From: a virus
Direction: 5' to 3' (one strand)
Virus record (IMG/VR): IMGVR_UViG_3300009605_003943
Coordinates: 1 to 22,038 of that record
Length of the DNA stretch: 22,038 nucleotides
Under the pieces are notes generated by a model. That model saw only the letters and a list, made by a program, of their open reading frames with translations. It was not told the DNA's origin and did not search any database. This document shows positions 7,455 through 20,687 of this stretch, piece after piece (the first letter of the stretch is position 1; every line of letters begins with the position of its first letter). Position numbers and translations under genes: made by a program.

Positions 7455-7897
7455 ATCTTAGGCTTGATGGTAACTTCTACTTTGTCGGAACCACCACTGT
7501 ATTGAGCCTGAATCACTAGATCCGATGGAGTAAGTAGTGAGTCAAAACCAAATGCATTTTCATCTAATGCTTCGTGACTTCTCTTAACACCATCGCAGAA
7601 TTGCGCAAGAACATTGACTGGAATTTCCAGTGCCTTAGCAACCTTTATGATTGCCTTGGAATCTAAGTTGTTGAAGTTCTCTATGTACCAAGATGTCATA
7701 CTATTTCCCCACTTTCGTTCTGACTTAGATGCCAAGGTTCGTTTTTTAATCTCTTGACTTATCCATAGATCAGCTTTTTCCAATGCTTCTAAATAGGACT
7801 TTCCCCACCCAATTGGATCATCATTACAAGCAGTTAAATGGTTGGAAACAGCATCCTCCATTACTCGTAATCTCTTCATTGTTAAACTTATAGTCAT
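7451..7897 (-). CDS. Phage protein of unknown function downstream of polymerase
   Basis: 148 residues from ATG 7897, which overlaps the polymerase TGA as ATGA and has GGAGTGGGAAG upstream; an in-frame GTG at 7906 would add three residues but lies inside the coupled site. The protein is mixed, with a helical N-terminal half (LRVMEDAVSNHL, SYLEALEKADLWISQEIKKR), a central helix pair (DSKAIIKVAKALEIPVNVLAQF) that could be helix-turn-helix-like, and a beta-type end (KVEVTIKPKI). No known domain is recognised. Coupling to the polymerase suggests a replication role. Confidence 0.65.
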   Translation of the reverse strand: MTISLTMKRLRVMEDAVSNHLTACNDDPIGWGKSYLEALEKADLWISQEIKKRTLASKSERKWGNSMTSWYIENFNNLDSKAIIKVAKALEIPVNVLAQFCDGVKRSHEALDENAFGFDSLLTPSDLVIQAQYSGGSDKVEVTIKPKI

Positions 7898-10461
7898 TCT
7901 TCCCACTCCTCATAAGGTACTAGTTGTCCCCAGTTAGGTCCAACTTCTGCTTCAACCGGTGTAGGCACACTCAATGGAACTATAGTTTCCATGATCTTAC
8001 TAGCATTGGGAATTAAATACTTAACATGTTCTCTAGCACACGAAAATACTAATTCATCATGAACTTGAAGAATCATCCTAGCATTGATTTTATGTCTATT
8101 TAACATCTTCATGATCTCAGCCATTGCTTGCTGAATGTGTCCAGCTGAACCGCCTTGAACTGGTGTGTTAACAGCATGGCGTTCAGCCTCTCTCCTCATA
8201 TGATAATTACGTGAAGTTATCCCAGGGAGATAGCGTTTAAATCCAAAGTGAGTCTCAACATACCCGTAATTCTTGGCAAAGATTATCATTGCATCTGCCC
8301 ATTGCCAAAACTGAGGATAGAGTCTTCTATGTTCTTTGAGGAATTTTTGAGCAACTTCCAAGCTACATTCTAAAGTCTGTGCTAGTTTTCTAGCTTCTGC
8401 TCCATACAAAGCCGCAAAATTACCATTCTTGCTTCCTTTGTAATAGTAGTCCCAATCAGCATGACTAGGAGTTATATCGTAAATTTCCCTACAAGTATTC
8501 TCATGAATGGAAACTTCTCCATCGTTGAAAATCTTCATCATAGTTACATCTTGGGATAAATGACCAGCCCATCGTAATTCTATTTGGGACTGATCGATAG
8601 CTACAATCTCATGACCAACTTCATCACCTATGATGATCTCTCTGATAACCTTCCACTGGATATCTCTTGCTGGTATATTCTGAATGTTAGGACCAGATGA
8701 AGAACCACGAGATGTCAATGTAATGATCTGATTAAAACTAGGATGGACCCTAAAAGTCTTAGGGTGAATATGCTTTTCCATTCCAGAGATAAACGTTGAG
8801 TTAATAGTACTTAAACTATTAAAATCAATTAACTTACCTACTATGGGGTTTTCATGTCTGATTGATTCTAAGTCTCCAGCGGCTACAGAATACCTACTTT
8901 TTGAAGGAGTCAATTTCGTAGGTGAGAGTTTCAAATCCTCAAACAAAACCTTTGCTGTTTGATCTCCAGAGCGTAAATTAAACTCTGTAGACTCTCCCAT
9001 TTTCTCTTTGTAAAGATCAAAGACTTCTTTTTCAATCCCTCTTAACATACTCTTAATCAAAGGCTTTAATGATTCGATTCTATCTATGTCAAGTTCAATA
9101 CCTTCATACTCTGAGTCAATCACCCAAGGGAGCAACTTCATCAAAGTATCCTCAAAGTATCTTCTCTCCCCATCATCAAACTTTGACTTTGCATACTCTG
9201 CATACAACAAAGTATAAATAGAATCATTACATCCATAGGGGAAAACTTGAGCTAATGGAGCTTCACTTAAAACATGTTTTTTTAAATCAATTATGGAATT
9301 AATATCGTTCAGTGTAATCCCAAATGTTGCTTTGGTAAGAGGCTTTAATCCAACTTGCTCTTCTCGTAATGAGTAAGCAGCTAGAATAGTATCGAATATT
9401 TTTCTGAATCTCAACCCATACTTTTTTAAACTTTGTATTTCATACTTGCTATTATGCATAAAAACTTCACATCTCTCAAAGTGAGGTTGAAGCAATGCTA
9501 GAAGTACATGTGGGACTTGGGAAGAATTCTCTAAATCAAAATTCCCTAGAGGAACATCGGCGTAATCAGAAGTGGGAATATACCATGCTCGTATTGTTTC
9601 GTCTAATCTATACGCAATAGAAAACCCAATGAGTTTATTCTGAATTGGATCTACATTCTTACTGCTTTTGTTGTTTCGAACCCAATCAGGTTCATCACAC
9701 TCAATGTCAAAAGCGAACTCTTGTACCTGAGACAATTGCTCTAGTAAAACTGCAAACTTCTCAGCTGTATCTCCTAATTCTAAATTATATTCCTTTGGCT
9801 TTTTCAGCTTTCCGGAATCATCCAAATTCTCATTTAAACGTCTTGATATATTTCTGTAATCCCACTCTAATACTTTTGCACTGACTGCTCTATTCACCCC
9901 AGCTGGATGATACAGTGGCATTACTGGATAACCATTCCAATCATAAACTTTACCATGTCCTTCTGCTAGAGAAATTCCCAACAAAGTCTTAGTGGCAATT
10001 CTTCCTATGGTAAAGATTACTTTAGGATCTACAATGGCAATTTCTGATAGCAGAAAAGGCATACACGCATCAATTTCATTCTTATACGGATCACGATTCT
10101 CAGCAGGATGACAACGAATTGTATTTGCAAATCGACATTCATCCAGATCAATCTCAGCTAATCTAGTTATCAATCTTTCTTTTAGATACTGGCCTGATCT
10201 ACCAACGAATCCCTCACCGATTCTATCTTCGTTTTCACCTGGAGCTTCACCAATCCAGAGATAAGGAGCATCGATAGGTCCACTCCCAGGAACTCCACAT
10301 ATAGAAGAATCCGTTAATCGAATAGCAGTTTTAGACTGAATAGGAACTGTGTATTCGCGCTTAACCTGTCCTTTGTTCTTTCCAGATTTGATAATACTCT
10401 CTGTGTACTCTCCGCATTTTCGACAATTTAAAATAGCTTCACGTAATACAGCTTCACTCAT
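7894..10461 (-). CDS. Uracil-DNA glycosylase-DNA polymerase I (family A) fusion
   Basis: 855 residues, three domains. Residues 1-200 are a family-4 (Fe-S) uracil-DNA glycosylase: cysteines C13, C16, C117, C133; GEAPGENED (71-79), GFVGRSG (84-90), NTIRCHPAENR, and HPAG (185-188). Residues about 245-420 are the 3'-5' proofreading domain: ExoI FDIECDE (251-257), ExoII HNSKYEIQSL (336-345, where the usual Asp is Glu341) and ExoIII YGCND (409-413). Residues about 430-850 are the polymerase: motif A DQSQIELR (623-630, Gln for the usual Tyr), motif B K678...NF682...Y686G, motif C QVHDELVF (799-806). There is no 5'-3' exonuclease domain. It replicates phage DNA and may sense or remove uracil. A UDG-like N-terminus on a phage family A polymerase is known from SPO1-type phages. 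ATG 10461 overlaps the XPF gene stop (ATGA). Confidence 0.95.
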   Translation of the reverse strand: MSEAVLREAILNCRKCGEYTESIIKSGKNKGQVKREYTVPIQSKTAIRLTDSSICGVPGSGPIDAPYLWIGEAPGENEDRIGEGFVGRSGQYLKERLITRLAEIDLDECRFANTIRCHPAENRDPYKNEIDACMPFLLSEIAIVDPKVIFTIGRIATKTLLGISLAEGHGKVYDWNGYPVMPLYHPAGVNRAVSAKVLEWDYRNISRRLNENLDDSGKLKKPKEYNLELGDTAEKFAVLLEQLSQVQEFAFDIECDEPDWVRNNKSSKNVDPIQNKLIGFSIAYRLDETIRAWYIPTSDYADVPLGNFDLENSSQVPHVLLALLQPHFERCEVFMHNSKYEIQSLKKYGLRFRKIFDTILAAYSLREEQVGLKPLTKATFGITLNDINSIIDLKKHVLSEAPLAQVFPYGCNDSIYTLLYAEYAKSKFDDGERRYFEDTLMKLLPWVIDSEYEGIELDIDRIESLKPLIKSMLRGIEKEVFDLYKEKMGESTEFNLRSGDQTAKVLFEDLKLSPTKLTPSKSRYSVAAGDLESIRHENPIVGKLIDFNSLSTINSTFISGMEKHIHPKTFRVHPSFNQIITLTSRGSSSGPNIQNIPARDIQWKVIREIIIGDEVGHEIVAIDQSQIELRWAGHLSQDVTMMKIFNDGEVSIHENTCREIYDITPSHADWDYYYKGSKNGNFAALYGAEARKLAQTLECSLEVAQKFLKEHRRLYPQFWQWADAMIIFAKNYGYVETHFGFKRYLPGITSRNYHMRREAERHAVNTPVQGGSAGHIQQAMAEIMKMLNRHKINARMILQVHDELVFSCAREHVKYLIPNASKIMETIVPLSVPTPVEAEVGPNWGQLVPYEEWEE

Positions 10462-11192
10462 GATAATTCTTCCTGTCCCTCTAATCGAGAACCTACAAAA
10501 TCCCTAACTTTTTTGACTGAACCTCTACCAAATCCTGGAATGTTAAATAACTCACTGTTAGTGAGTTGAACTAGAATCTGGAGATCAGGAGCAACTTTTG
10601 CTAGTTTTAAAGCACGTTTAATACCAATGCCCATTCTTTCGTAAATCTCAGCTAATGGGTCATTCATTAATTCAAAGTTAAGGATCTTCTTTTTTACAAA
10701 AACTTCTGTTTCTCGGTTAGTAACATTCCAGAATTTTTCTTGTGATAACACAAAAGCGGCTAGATGTTTTATATCAGGAACATGTCTTATATGTCCACCA
10801 CCAGCTTCAAACTTCATCAATGCTGAGTTGAACCAATGCCACGAATAAGCGGCATCCTGAAGCTGTCCAGTACGGTAATCTATATCCCTCATTTTCCCAG
10901 TAGATAGATTAATAGACATCGGATGACCTATAAAAACAATATAAGCTACATCATAAAACTCTAACATTCGAATAGGTTGATGTACTAATCTTCCATCTCT
11001 TAAACTAGCAAAAGCGTCTGATGGATAGTGTTTGAATTCTAACCCAACACTTATATGTTTGTCTTCAACTATACCATCAAAGCATAAATCTGCACATTCA
11101 AGAACTCTACTACTAACTCTACCAGAGAGAAGAGGAATTAATTCATGTCCAATATGACCTTCAATACATTCGTTACTATCAAGAGTAATCAT
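10458..11192 (-). CDS. XPF/MUS81-like ERCC4 nuclease with helix-hairpin-helix tail
   Basis: 244 residues. The N-terminal 100 hold an ERCC4-type nuclease core: D35/D39 in CADLCFDG, then LEFKHYPSD (51-59) in place of the usual ERKxxxD, and DGR (66-68) followed by HQPIRML, as in the 'DGR..Q..RL' signature. Arg of ERK is replaced by Phe53, and the Asp is one residue further. Residues about 185-235 form tandem helix-hairpin-helix motifs (MGIGIKRALKLAK and LFNIPGFGRGSVKKVRDF), which bind DNA branch points. The family cuts 3'-flaps, forks and related junctions. The two-part architecture equals that of short archaeal XPF. It lies between the Sak4 ATPase and the polymerase with 4-base overlaps on both sides, fitting a role in recombination-dependent replication. 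Confidence 0.88.
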   Translation of the reverse strand: MITLDSNECIEGHIGHELIPLLSGRVSSRVLECADLCFDGIVEDKHISVGLEFKHYPSDAFASLRDGRLVHQPIRMLEFYDVAYIVFIGHPMSINLSTGKMRDIDYRTGQLQDAAYSWHWFNSALMKFEAGGGHIRHVPDIKHLAAFVLSQEKFWNVTNRETEVFVKKKILNFELMNDPLAEIYERMGIGIKRALKLAKVAPDLQILVQLTNSELFNIPGFGRGSVKKVRDFVGSRLEGQEELS

Positions 11193-12043
11193 TCTTCTTC
11201 TTCATCCAGTGTTTTGTCGTAATTATCTCCAATGAGAATCTTCATGCGTTCAGTTGGAATTTCAGTTCCTTCCAACATACTCTTCACACCTTTGAAATTA
11301 ACGTCAGTTATCACAGCCCCGATTAAATCATTATCGTCTCTGCATTTCTCAACAAGTAGCCAACGACGATCAACTCCACCTGTTTTTGGATTTTGATCTA
11401 CCCCAATCCTAACTACTAAATCAGCATCTTGTAATGCTTTTTTATTCCCATGGTATTTATACAATCCAGTAGATTGTCCCTTTGAATTGTGGATTTCTGA
11501 CGCATGATTCAACATCAGCAAATTCAAATTAGTTGCGCGTAATGATTCAAACGGAGCAAGGAAAGCATTGTTCGCATACTTCCATTCAAATTGGAGGAAC
11601 TTCTGATTCCTCTCTTCAGCAATTTTCTTTCTAGGTTCCACTGTTACTTCAGAGCATATATTCCACAAGTTACTAGCTGTATCAATTACAATAGTACCCT
11701 CTGGAGCCATCTCTGAAACACCCTTCATCCAATCCAAACAAAACTGCCACATTTTATTATAATGCTGTTGTAACCTGATAAAAGGAGGCTTTCCATCAAA
11801 GCATTGTTGCCAAGCTTCGGTAATAAATACTTCATTAGGATTTAAGTTATCTTTTAAAACCTTCCTTCTCAAAGCAGAAAATGGTCCATCTGTTTCTAGT
11901 GACAATATATAAATCGGAGTAGGAAACCCCATTGAGAAATAAGACTTCCCCAATCCAGTCTCACTCCAAGCAACAACAAACCATCTGTTTCGTTCGGCTA
12001 GATAACTAGACCCACTCTGAAGAGTATTTATATCAAAGGTCAC
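11189..12043 (-). CDS. Sak4-like RecA-family ATPase (phage recombinase)
   Basis: 284 residues, P-loop ATPase of the phage Sak4 type (RecA/Rad51-like core without the extra RecA domains), which promotes single-strand annealing with its SSB. Walker A is SETGLGKS (27-34), with Ser in place of the first Gly; Walker B is TIVID (117-121); a sensor-like strand LLMLNHASE (175-183) follows; the tail is acidic (DEEEE). The start is GTG 12043, overlapping the upstream TGA (GTGA), with AGGAGG at a good distance. Neighbours are a Cas4-like nuclease and an XPF-like nuclease, the usual company of phage recombinases. Confidence 0.85.
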   Translation of the reverse strand: MTFDINTLQSGSSYLAERNRWFVVAWSETGLGKSYFSMGFPTPIYILSLETDGPFSALRRKVLKDNLNPNEVFITEAWQQCFDGKPPFIRLQQHYNKMWQFCLDWMKGVSEMAPEGTIVIDTASNLWNICSEVTVEPRKKIAEERNQKFLQFEWKYANNAFLAPFESLRATNLNLLMLNHASEIHNSKGQSTGLYKYHGNKKALQDADLVVRIGVDQNPKTGGVDRRWLLVEKCRDDNDLIGAVITDVNFKGVKSMLEGTEIPTERMKILIGDNYDKTLDEEEE

Positions 12044-12699
12044 TCTAATCCTCCTAAATCCAAAGTACTTTCAACATCATCACAAATCCACTTATAAGCG
12101 CAACCTTTACAGAGCCAAGTTAGAGGAGTTTTTGGTGGATGTGTCCCCTCGCTTAAATGTGTCGCAACATAATCTCTTCTGTTCAACATGATAGATTTTA
12201 ATTGTTCTAGTTCTTCCTCAGTCCAAGTCACAACATAGATTTGAACTCCAGGTACAGGAAGCATATAAAAAACAGCGAACCTAGATTGAGTTCTACCTCT
12301 AGCAATAGCATACGATCCTGCTTGTTCCAACCAATAAGTTTTCAGATAACTTTCAGTAGGAGCACGACCCCATGTAAACTTACATTCCCAATCATGAGGA
12401 TCATCACCAAAATCAATATGGCCTACTAGATCCTCTAGATAAACTTCTAGTTCTTGAGTTGTATTCCTCAAGTAAGTTTTAGCTAAAGCAGTCTCAAAGG
12501 CTCGACCGAATGCAAACCTTAAAGCAGTAGTAAACTCCCACTTGGGAGCATACTGTCTACCTAAAGTAGTTTGCCTTAAACATAGAATCAAGTCTGAAAT
12601 GTGAAGTTGCTCATCTCTAGGTTCTTGATTGACTAAATCTTCTACGTGTTGATCTTCCCACTCTATTTCAATCTCTGGACTTCTCTCTATACTTGGCAT
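12040..12699 (-). CDS. Cas4-like PD-(D/E)XK exonuclease with Fe-S cysteines
   Basis: 219 residues. It has the pattern of Cas4/RecB-type nucleases: an N-terminal Cys (C40 in DLILCLRQTT), motif II VGHIDF (92-97, D96), motif III WECKF (104-108, E105 and K107), the QxxxY helix (Q126, Y130) and a C-terminal cysteine group C197, C200, C206 (LCKGCAYKWIC), so the four Fe-S ligands are present. Such enzymes resect DNA ends, usually 5'-3', to supply single strands to a recombinase, here the adjacent Sak4 protein. ATG 12699 has GGAGG 4 bases upstream and overlaps the previous gene by 13 bases. No cas1 or CRISPR array is seen, so a CRISPR role is not supported. Confidence 0.88.
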   Translation of the reverse strand: MPSIERSPEIEIEWEDQHVEDLVNQEPRDEQLHISDLILCLRQTTLGRQYAPKWEFTTALRFAFGRAFETALAKTYLRNTTQELEVYLEDLVGHIDFGDDPHDWECKFTWGRAPTESYLKTYWLEQAGSYAIARGRTQSRFAVFYMLPVPGVQIYVVTWTEEELEQLKSIMLNRRDYVATHLSEGTHPPKTPLTWLCKGCAYKWICDDVESTLDLGGLE

Positions 12700-17319: not shown

Positions 17320-17646
17320 TTAATCTAAGGTGTCAGTGCCACATATAAATACATCTCCTACTAGGAATTCATTTCTAAGCATAGCATGTGGAAATTCGAA
17401 ACCCATTATAGATGTAGCAATTGGATTGAAAGATTCACCTTTTAAACGTCCTTCTTCATCACAAAGAATCACAAGATCTAAACTCCGAAGCGTAATAACT
17501 TCGACTAAATCTTTTTGGCTTAATCCTATTAAAGATTTGATTTTTTCAAAACCAAGTGGTGGATTTGAAATAGAAATCCTCCCACTGGTTTTAATTAGAA
17601 TTCCACCACCTGATTTACAAAGCTGTTCTAATTCAGATTTTTTCAC
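17320..17646 (-). CDS. DUF3846-domain protein
   Basis: 108 residues from GTG 17646, which overlaps the upstream TGA (GTGA) and has GAGGAG 5 bases before it; TTG at 17667 is less likely. The C-terminal half fits DUF3846: VILCDEEGRLKG, NPIATSIMG and LVGDVFICG, the 'DEEG-LKG-NxxAT-VGD' pattern. DUF3846 proteins are common in phages and mobile elements, with no established biochemical function. Here the N-terminal half (LCKSGGGILIKTSGRISISN) is beta-like and not clearly part of the domain. It ends the run of accessory genes read from 18789. Confidence 0.75.
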   Translation of the reverse strand: MKKSELEQLCKSGGGILIKTSGRISISNPPLGFEKIKSLIGLSQKDLVEVITLRSLDLVILCDEEGRLKGESFNPIATSIMGFEFPHAMLRNEFLVGDVFICGTDTLD

Positions 17647-18065
17647 TTTGTCTCCTCTATTTCCCAAAGTCTTTGGTGAAGACTATCACTTATGATACGA
17701 ATGATATCTTCTTTAGGTATATGATTTTTAACAGTTTGTTCATCTAAGGTTGTATGTGTAAGAGCTGTTTTAATTGTTTGTGTAAATTCTTTGTAAGAAA
17801 TTACATCATTGGGATCTTTTACCTTTACTGCATTTTCCAAAATAACATTGTGAAGGAACAGTGCACCTTCAACTAACTCCTTTGCGAATTTAAGATTTAA
17901 GTTATAATTTTGACGTACTTGTTTAACAGCGGTTATTTTGCTATTTTCACATTCACAATCTATGTGCTCACTAACAATAGCCATAATGTCTTCGGTATAA
18001 ATTGGAATGATAACTTCCCCTTTACCGTTACAAGCTTCGCATTTATTGTGCATTTCAAAGTACAT
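17643..18065 (-). CDS. Zinc-site protein with an L7/L12 C-terminal-like segment
   Basis: 140 residues from ATG 18065 (AAGGAG 7 bases upstream; ATG 18086 is the longer option). An N-terminal CEACNGKGE and a later CEC (C9, C12, C37, C39) suggest a zinc site. Residues about 43-68, KITAVKQVRQNYNLNLKFAKELVEGA in pattern, match the helical core of the ribosomal L7/L12 C-terminal domain (K-x-x-V-K-x-V-R...L-x-L-K-x-A-K-x-L-V-E), the surface that binds translation GTPases: residues equal to E. coli K65, K70, R73, K81 and K84 are all kept. The remaining 70 residues are helical and not recognised. Possible roles: contacting EF-Tu/EF-G or mimicking the stalk. No L7/L12 N-terminal dimer domain is seen. 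Confidence 0.72.
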   Translation of the reverse strand: MYFEMHNKCEACNGKGEVIIPIYTEDIMAIVSEHIDCECENSKITAVKQVRQNYNLNLKFAKELVEGALFLHNVILENAVKVKDPNDVISYKEFTQTIKTALTHTTLDEQTVKNHIPKEDIIRIISDSLHQRLWEIEETK

Positions 18066-18076
18066 AGTTAAACTCC

Positions 18077-18277
18077 TTACATCCATTCTCCAGATTCTAG
18101 ATAAACAATGTTCTCTATCGTTTCTTCTTTACCACAGTCAATACATTCAAAAGTTGTAGCTTCATTACATTGACCACAAAAGTTTTCTACATGCTCATTC
18201 CTTTCTGCACCACAGCAACTAGATACGTAATCTAAACTAATTGTAGTATCACTTGCGCAACTATGAAGATTCGTCAT
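18077..18277 (-). CDS. Small zinc-ribbon protein
   Basis: 66 residues with SSCCGAERNEHVENFCGQCN and FECIDCG: several CxxC pairs able to hold one or two zinc ions. Such 'CCGA' zinc-ribbon proteins are common among phage accessory genes. The ATG overlaps the preceding gene's end by 17 bases. Function unknown; nucleic-acid or protein binding is likely. Confidence 0.65.
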   Translation of the reverse strand: MTNLHSCASDTTISLDYVSSCCGAERNEHVENFCGQCNEATTFECIDCGKEETIENIVYLESGEWM

Positions 18278-18477: not shown

Positions 18478-18789
18478 CTATGATATCTCACTAACTCTAG
18501 AGTCTGGTTGTTCGTCTTGAGTTGCACCGCATCTATGACATGCTAGTCTATCTGCTTTTTTGTGAATGTAATTAGCTTCACATTCACAATCCCAGTAATC
18601 AGGATTAGTTTCTGTGGTTTCTTTAAGTTTTTTAACTGCAAGCACAAAGTGCGCTAATGTAGATAACTGTTCTGGGGTAGCATCTAAAATCTTCCTATGT
18701 CCTACTTTTCCGACTACATCCATAGCCCTAAGTCCAGTTGCAAAGGCTTGTAGGAAAGGTGCATTCAATTCTGATTCGTTATTATTCAT
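18478..18789 (-). CDS. Small zinc-site protein of unknown function
   Basis: 103 residues; ATG with GGGAG 7 bases upstream. Residues 1-60 are helical and hydrophobic-patterned (FLQAFATGLRAMDVVGKVG, LSTLAHFVLAVKKLKE). The C-terminal part contains CECEANYIH and CHRCG, a Cys4-type zinc site. No family is recognised. Confidence 0.62.
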   Translation of the reverse strand: MNNNESELNAPFLQAFATGLRAMDVVGKVGHRKILDATPEQLSTLAHFVLAVKKLKETTETNPDYWDCECEANYIHKKADRLACHRCGATQDEQPDSRVSEIS

Positions 18790-20301: not shown

Positions 20302-20497
20302 TTTTGTTTCCCTCCAGAAGTAATGGATGACTGTATTCACTAGGTCTAATTTCTCTCATGTTAAACATAAACCTAGGTGGGACTCCGATAAACTTTCCGT
20401 TACGAATCAATCCTCTACAAGTACAGCATAATCGCAATGGTTCATTTTGTATTGCATTGTAATCAATTAGTCTTTGGAAATCATGCTTACACTTCAT
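20288..20497 (-). CDS. Small Cys-containing protein, unknown function
   Basis: 69 residues, ATG with AAGGAG 7 bases upstream. CKHDF near the start and LCCTCRG at 23-29 can form a C-H-C-C metal site. The rest is basic and Pro-rich (GVPPRFMFNMREIRPSEY). No family is recognised. Overlaps neighbours on both sides. Confidence 0.55.
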   Translation of the reverse strand: MKCKHDFQRLIDYNAIQNEPLRLCCTCRGLIRNGKFIGVPPRFMFNMREIRPSEYSHPLLLEGNKNVRL

Positions 20498-20687
20498 TTA
20501 ATTGCTCCTTTAAGCAGTCGTTACAACATGCGTCATGTGTACAGTTAATTGTAACGAGATCTCCATCTTTTGTTACAATTGTTATTAATTCATCGCATGG
20601 TTCATGGGCAAGTGAAATGCTATGCCATGGAACATTTTTATTGCAATAAATACAACGCCAGTATGCTTCTAATTCTTTATTTGGCAT
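20487..20687 (-). CDS. Small zinc-finger-like protein
   Basis: 66 residues; ATG with GAGGA upstream. CIYC (12-15), a His-rich stretch with HEPC, and CTHDACCNDC near the end give two or more Cys/His ligand pairs. No family is recognised; binding of nucleic acid or protein is plausible. Confidence 0.58.
   Translation of the reverse strand: MPNKELEAYWRCIYCNKNVPWHSISLAHEPCDELITIVTKDGDLVTINCTHDACCNDCLKEQLNEV

Follow-up and report, generated by a model that had tools for sequence, protein, structure and literature searches.

The stretch of DNA analyzed here, hereafter the window, is a 22-kb virus record of 22,038 nucleotides. On its minus strand, an open reading frame at positions 17643-18065 (stop codon included) encodes a protein of 140 residues starting with the ATG at 18065. 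A ribosome-binding site, AAGGAG (18073-18078, minus strand), lies 7 bases before this start codon and shares bases with the upstream gene's stop codon (18077-18079). At the other end, the TGA of the gene and the GTG start of the next one overlap in the sequence GTGA (17643-17646, minus strand), which is preceded by AGAGGAG and couples the gene to a downstream DUF3846 gene (17320-17646, minus strand; PF12957, E=2.7e-6; likely start GTG 17646). The open reading frame is a real, translationally coupled gene. It belongs to a chain of short coupled minus-strand genes leading into a helicase, nucleases and a family A DNA polymerase, and it is from this position only that early expression is suggested.

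Further small cysteine-rich proteins are encoded in the same cluster (18077-18277, 18478-18789 and 20487-20687, minus strand). A Cas4-like PD-(D/E)XK nuclease, a Sak4-like AAA protein and a weak ERCC4-like nuclease follow in a row (12040-12699, 11189-12043 and 10458-11192, minus strand). The polymerase (7894-10461, minus strand) has a uracil-DNA-glycosylase domain at its N-terminus (PF03167, E=2.4e-26) as well as a 3'-5' exonuclease domain, and is at most 34% identical to the listed phage records. A second IMG/VR contig has the same polymerase gene (100% protein identity) and ends before reaching the gene of the 140-residue protein.

The original prediction described a protein combining a CxxC...CxC site with an L7/L12-like segment, and translation of the reading frame, which gives 140 residues, confirms this. 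The order is a putative zinc knuckle at residues 9-39 (C9xxC12xGxG and C37xC39; 17949-18041, minus strand), an alpha-turn-alpha hairpin of the ribosomal protein L12 type at residues 43-66 (KITAVKQVRQNYNLNLKFAKELVE; 17868-17939, minus strand), recognized with Pfam, a phage hairpin HMM and a structural model, and a predicted helical tail at residues 69-140 (17646-17861, minus strand), where model confidence is mostly low. No relatives of the tail were detectable, in line with its earlier description as unrelated.

The Pfam family Ribosomal_L12 (PF00542) matches residues 40-68 (17862-17948) with an E value of 1.7e-5 computed over 24,736 families and a score of 25.5 bits, for a gathering cut-off of 25.9. 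In a genome-level search the score was 25.1 bits (E=4.5e-7), rising above the cut-off to 26 bits when neighbours in frame were included. An HMM built from 48 phage hairpins, with the 140-residue protein excluded, scored it at 22.9 bits; among 20,000 shuffled sequences the highest score was 12.3 bits, and 9,033 of them gave any score. In a gapless alignment with verified Escherichia coli L12 numbering, K43, K48, R51, K59, K62 and E66 correspond to K65, K70, R73, K81, K84 and E88. The resemblance could be put down to chance, given that the Pfam score is a little below the gathering cut-off, that only 29 residues are aligned and that the stretch was chosen by eye. This is most improbable in view of the E value over 24,736 families and of the shuffles, none of which came near, and it is contradicted by an independent homologue, described below, that scores above the cut-off at 30.7 bits. 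As judged from sequence comparison, the L12 resemblance of the hairpin is real.

The extent of this resemblance is more limited than the "L7/L12 C-terminal-like core" first proposed. The match covers only profile positions 9-37, i.e. 29 of 67. By this alignment, what is shared is the alpha-turn-alpha hairpin that binds factors, rather than the L12 C-terminal domain (CTD) in full; the hairpin part of the proposal stands, while "core" was an overstatement because the beta strands and the third helix are missing. Similarly, the five basic positions listed in the original prediction (K65, K70, R73, K81 and K84) were right, and E88 is present too, but two changes had been left out: N57 replaces the equivalent of G79, a position occupied by G in 42 of 48 phage hairpin groups, and F60 replaces that of E82, occupied by E or D in 40 of 48. 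The predicted absence of the L12 dimerisation domain, which binds uL10, was borne out, with no PF16320 match at E values up to 10 in Pfam; TIGR00855 scored 15.1 bits, for a cut-off of 84.4.

Structure prediction was consistent with the hairpin. A single-sequence fold was too poor for use (pLDDT 50.6), and a fold using 37 phage hairpin segments as alignment had a mean pLDDT of 73.5, with residues 41-70 averaging above 90. This second model has a short zinc-loop region, a helix at 24-34, a helix at 40-54, a turn and a helix at 58-80, so that residues 43-68 adopt the alpha-turn-alpha arrangement expected of them, in a model whose alignment itself carries the hairpin. Since the alignment consisted of hairpins only, the model backs the hairpin and tells little about the remaining protein. 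The complete alpha/beta fold of the CTD (three strands, three helices) was not seen: helices, not L12 strands, flank the modelled hairpin. Foldseek returned no significant match to the model in PDB or BFVD, and bL12 was absent among the 50 PDB fold matches listed. In the viral fold library, two phage bL12-like proteins were matched locally, with a probability of 0.80 and E values above 1.

The N-terminal part resembles the central zinc domain of DnaJ (PF00684), which gave 13.6 bits for a cut-off of 32.7 (E=0.082). A co-chaperone-like role, with the CxxCxGxG knuckle working as in DnaJ and the hairpin being incidental, would account for this match and for a similarly weak one in the homologue (E=0.039). 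We regard such a role as very unlikely, as the protein has one CxxCxGxG unit plus CxC where PF00684 has four units, lacks a J domain and scores far under the cut-off.

Direct searches of IMG/VR, phage records and GTDB genomes found no close relatives of the 140-residue protein, and an alignment-guided scan produced 295 pattern stretches, none confirmed. We also scanned for zinc-plus-hairpin patterns, a search limited by codon choice. Patterns beginning TGTG or TGCG had no match. The pattern beginning TGTA recovered two stretches, one of which (L126) was rejected as the match is out of frame. The other (L125/L248 of IMGVR_UViG_3300032006_000003), the sole other zinc-hairpin protein found, is a 90-residue protein from an 82.7-kb phage, so the combination that the original prediction had proposed to look for in other phage genomes does exist. 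It shares 31% identity over 88 residues with the 140-residue protein, zinc part included (BLASTP E=5e-12 for the single pair), and has in common with it C9, C12 and C37 but not C39. When the N-terminal 42 residues were compared on their own, 7 of 5000 shuffles that left the motif residues in place scored as high. On these sequence grounds, L125 is a homologue beyond the hairpin. It is also the homologue that exceeds the PF00542 cut-off and weakly matches PF00684. A CxxCxGxG unit, a downstream Cys, the hairpin and homology beyond these motifs would define a group, with the 140-residue protein and L125 as members. The helicase of the window has no detectable copy in the L125 phage record and the two polymerases are about 25% identical; therefore, the two phages are not close relatives.

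A GTDB scan with the TGCA pattern gave at least 119 stretches, and no in-frame zinc-hairpin protein was found among the matches listed. The stretches shown resemble out-of-frame rplL hinge DNA, so the scan is uninformative on absence. In phages Chaser, LeBron and DyoEdafos and Synechococcus phage B23, a seeming extension of similarity into the zinc part was rejected: the hairpins are present, without CxxCxGxG.

Hairpins of this type proved widespread. When IMG/VR was scanned with a degenerate pattern for a single strict form of the hairpin, 103 stretches were recovered, corresponding to 85 distinct proteins and to 48 groups with unrelated flanks. At these loci (L003-L013 and L033-L124), the hairpin is often at the extreme C-terminus and most proteins lack an annotated function. 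In two of them (L006 and L012) the hairpin is followed by a C-terminal zinc-ribbon-like CPKC...CLSC, a different arrangement of hairpin and cysteines. Among well-studied phages, carriers of the hairpin are gp86 of mycobacteriophage LeBron (a weak match, E=0.0017), Streptomyces phage gp3 and RIIB of N4-like phages; in Pectobacterium phage phiA41 (L016) and other N4-like phages, where the L12 domain lies within RIIB, a GHKL ATPase gene adjoins.

We scanned 50 hairpin proteins for domains, namely 46 group representatives, the 140-residue protein, L125 and two Pseudomonas phage RF-1 fusions. An L12 match was found in 48, the L12 dimer domain in one, and RF-1 in two, both added deliberately. With the dimer domain missing in 49 of 50, a hairpin without it is the rule in phages. 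Moreover, bL12 domains sitting inside larger phage proteins have been described by Mizuno and colleagues in 2019 (PMC6375957), whose mass spectrometry of E. coli 70S ribosomes detected a phage bL12-domain protein; purification of ribosomes with tagged phage bL12 was not possible. The "new arrangement" claimed for the locus is thus in part upheld: according to the scans, the combination of zinc knuckle and hairpin is rare, but it recurs in L125, and both the missing dimer domain and the placing of L12 domains in other phage proteins are usual or published. The novelty is smaller than first claimed, and the new part is the zinc knuckle joined to a phage L12-derived hairpin.

Alternatively, the segment could be a generic helix-turn-helix, MerR-like or similar, whose likeness to L12 is convergent and which acts with the zinc knuckle in binding nucleic acid. 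Basic helices and a zinc knuckle would be suited to this, and one of 38 scanned members of the phage hairpin set A3 matches MerR_1 (E=0.0036). However, 37 of the 38 match L12, and for the 140-residue protein itself the match is to L12, with no hit to any MerR model at E values up to 10. The acidic residue at E. coli position 88 and K65 agree as well, though neither is fixed by the search pattern. Convergence is therefore unlikely.

The two RF-1 fusions come from Otagovirus phages. In Pseudomonas phage M5.1 gp5 (L246:2234-2707) and its Pyxpy02 homologue (L259:668-1156), an RF-1 domain (PF00472, E about 4e-14) whose catalytic GGQ reads GGM is fused to the L12 hairpin. We considered that the name "peptide chain release factor" of M5.1 gp5 could be a misannotation, and rejected this, as Pfam and PDB searches show a real RF-1 domain. 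A literature search on the fusion of RF-1/GGM with an L12 hairpin found no matching paper. This fusion ties the module to translation and is an independent, indirect hint that the hairpin docks on translation factors; partners as different as a zinc knuckle and a translation domain would fit a portable factor-docking module.

The L12 CTD binds IF2, EF-Tu, EF-G and RF3 through helices 4 and 5, which form this hairpin and carry a conserved basic site, the partner surface being an acidic region of the G domain of these factors (PMC6753160, PMC3677378), and L12 mutants at K65 and K70 bind EF-Tu more weakly (PMC10602876). We therefore propose, with a probability of about 0.45, that the 140-residue protein is an accessory protein using its hairpin to dock on host translational GTPases. 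In this proposal, a small protein encoded in a cluster of short co-directional genes would have an N-terminal DnaJ-like knuckle (C9, C12, C37 and C39), presumably binding zinc, that runs straight into the L12-derived hairpin and then into the helical tail. The hairpin would retain the basic surface that in L12 contacts the acidic G-domain helix and could dock on one or more host translational GTPases; docking might tether the protein to them or let it compete with the stalk during infection, with a possible effect on translation. The redirecting or blocking of host translation factors suggested in the original prediction may be such an effect, with indirect support from the RF-1 fusion. The Pfam match, the shuffle control, the basic residues with E88, the pLDDT values, the RF-1 fusion, the published phage bL12-domain protein detected in 70S ribosomes and the occurrence of L125 in another lineage all favour docking. 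Against it, N and F stand at the otherwise conserved positions of G79 and E82, the supporting beta sheet of L12 is missing, Foldseek gave no significant match, ribosomes with tagged phage bL12 resisted purification in the published study, and for most phage hairpin proteins no function is annotated.

Some of these points would also suit an L12-descended hairpin reused as a general protein-protein contact or scaffold, in a protein acting outside translation, for example in replication or host takeover, where it could serve as a zinc adaptor. The hairpin is carried by 48 phage groups with unrelated flanks, mostly without function by annotation and including RIIB, G79 and E82 are lost here, and the gene is part of a cluster of small genes whose reading direction leads to replication genes. 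Yet the basic face is invariant over the phage set (partly through the search pattern) and kept in the 140-residue protein, and of the other curated domains next to the hairpin, RF-1, a translation domain, is the only one indicative of a process. This makes reuse outside translation possible but doubtful in our view.

Docking on GTPases could also be extended to the whole set. More speculatively, the L12 hairpin might be a portable phage docking tag for host translational GTPases, borne by many small effectors (with a zinc knuckle in the present case, with RIIB in N4-like phages and with a GGM release-factor domain in Otagovirus). The 140-residue protein would then belong to a large, so far undescribed class of phage effectors targeted to translation. 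Should the hairpin bind translation factors when outside L12, dozens of phage proteins without a known function would have a common mechanism, and the hairpin would be a simple sequence tag for spotting phage proteins active on host translation. The version with the zinc knuckle is a small protein and easily tested.

Compared with known systems, the 140-residue protein shares with the bL12 CTD (PF00542) the hairpin and its K65, K70, R73, K81, K84 and E88 equivalents, whereas it lacks the beta strands and third helix and is changed at G79 and E82; compared with bL12 as a whole, the dimer domain is absent and the hairpin is attached to a zinc knuckle and a helical tail instead. With DnaJ (PF00684) it has in common one CxxCxGxG unit, but DnaJ has four units and a J domain, and the score is far below the cut-off. 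The published phage bL12-domain proteins (PMC6375957) likewise hold a piece of L12 CTD inside an unrelated phage polypeptide; many are larger, their flanks differ and zinc does not appear in the main text of that paper. M5.1 gp5 and its Pyxpy02 homologue are small phage proteins with the same hairpin, also from a small-gene cluster, but there a GGM-bearing release-factor domain takes the place of the zinc knuckle. L125 has the same order of elements (CxxCxGxG, a later Cys-Glu and the L12 hairpin) in another phage lineage, without the fourth Cys and the long helical tail.
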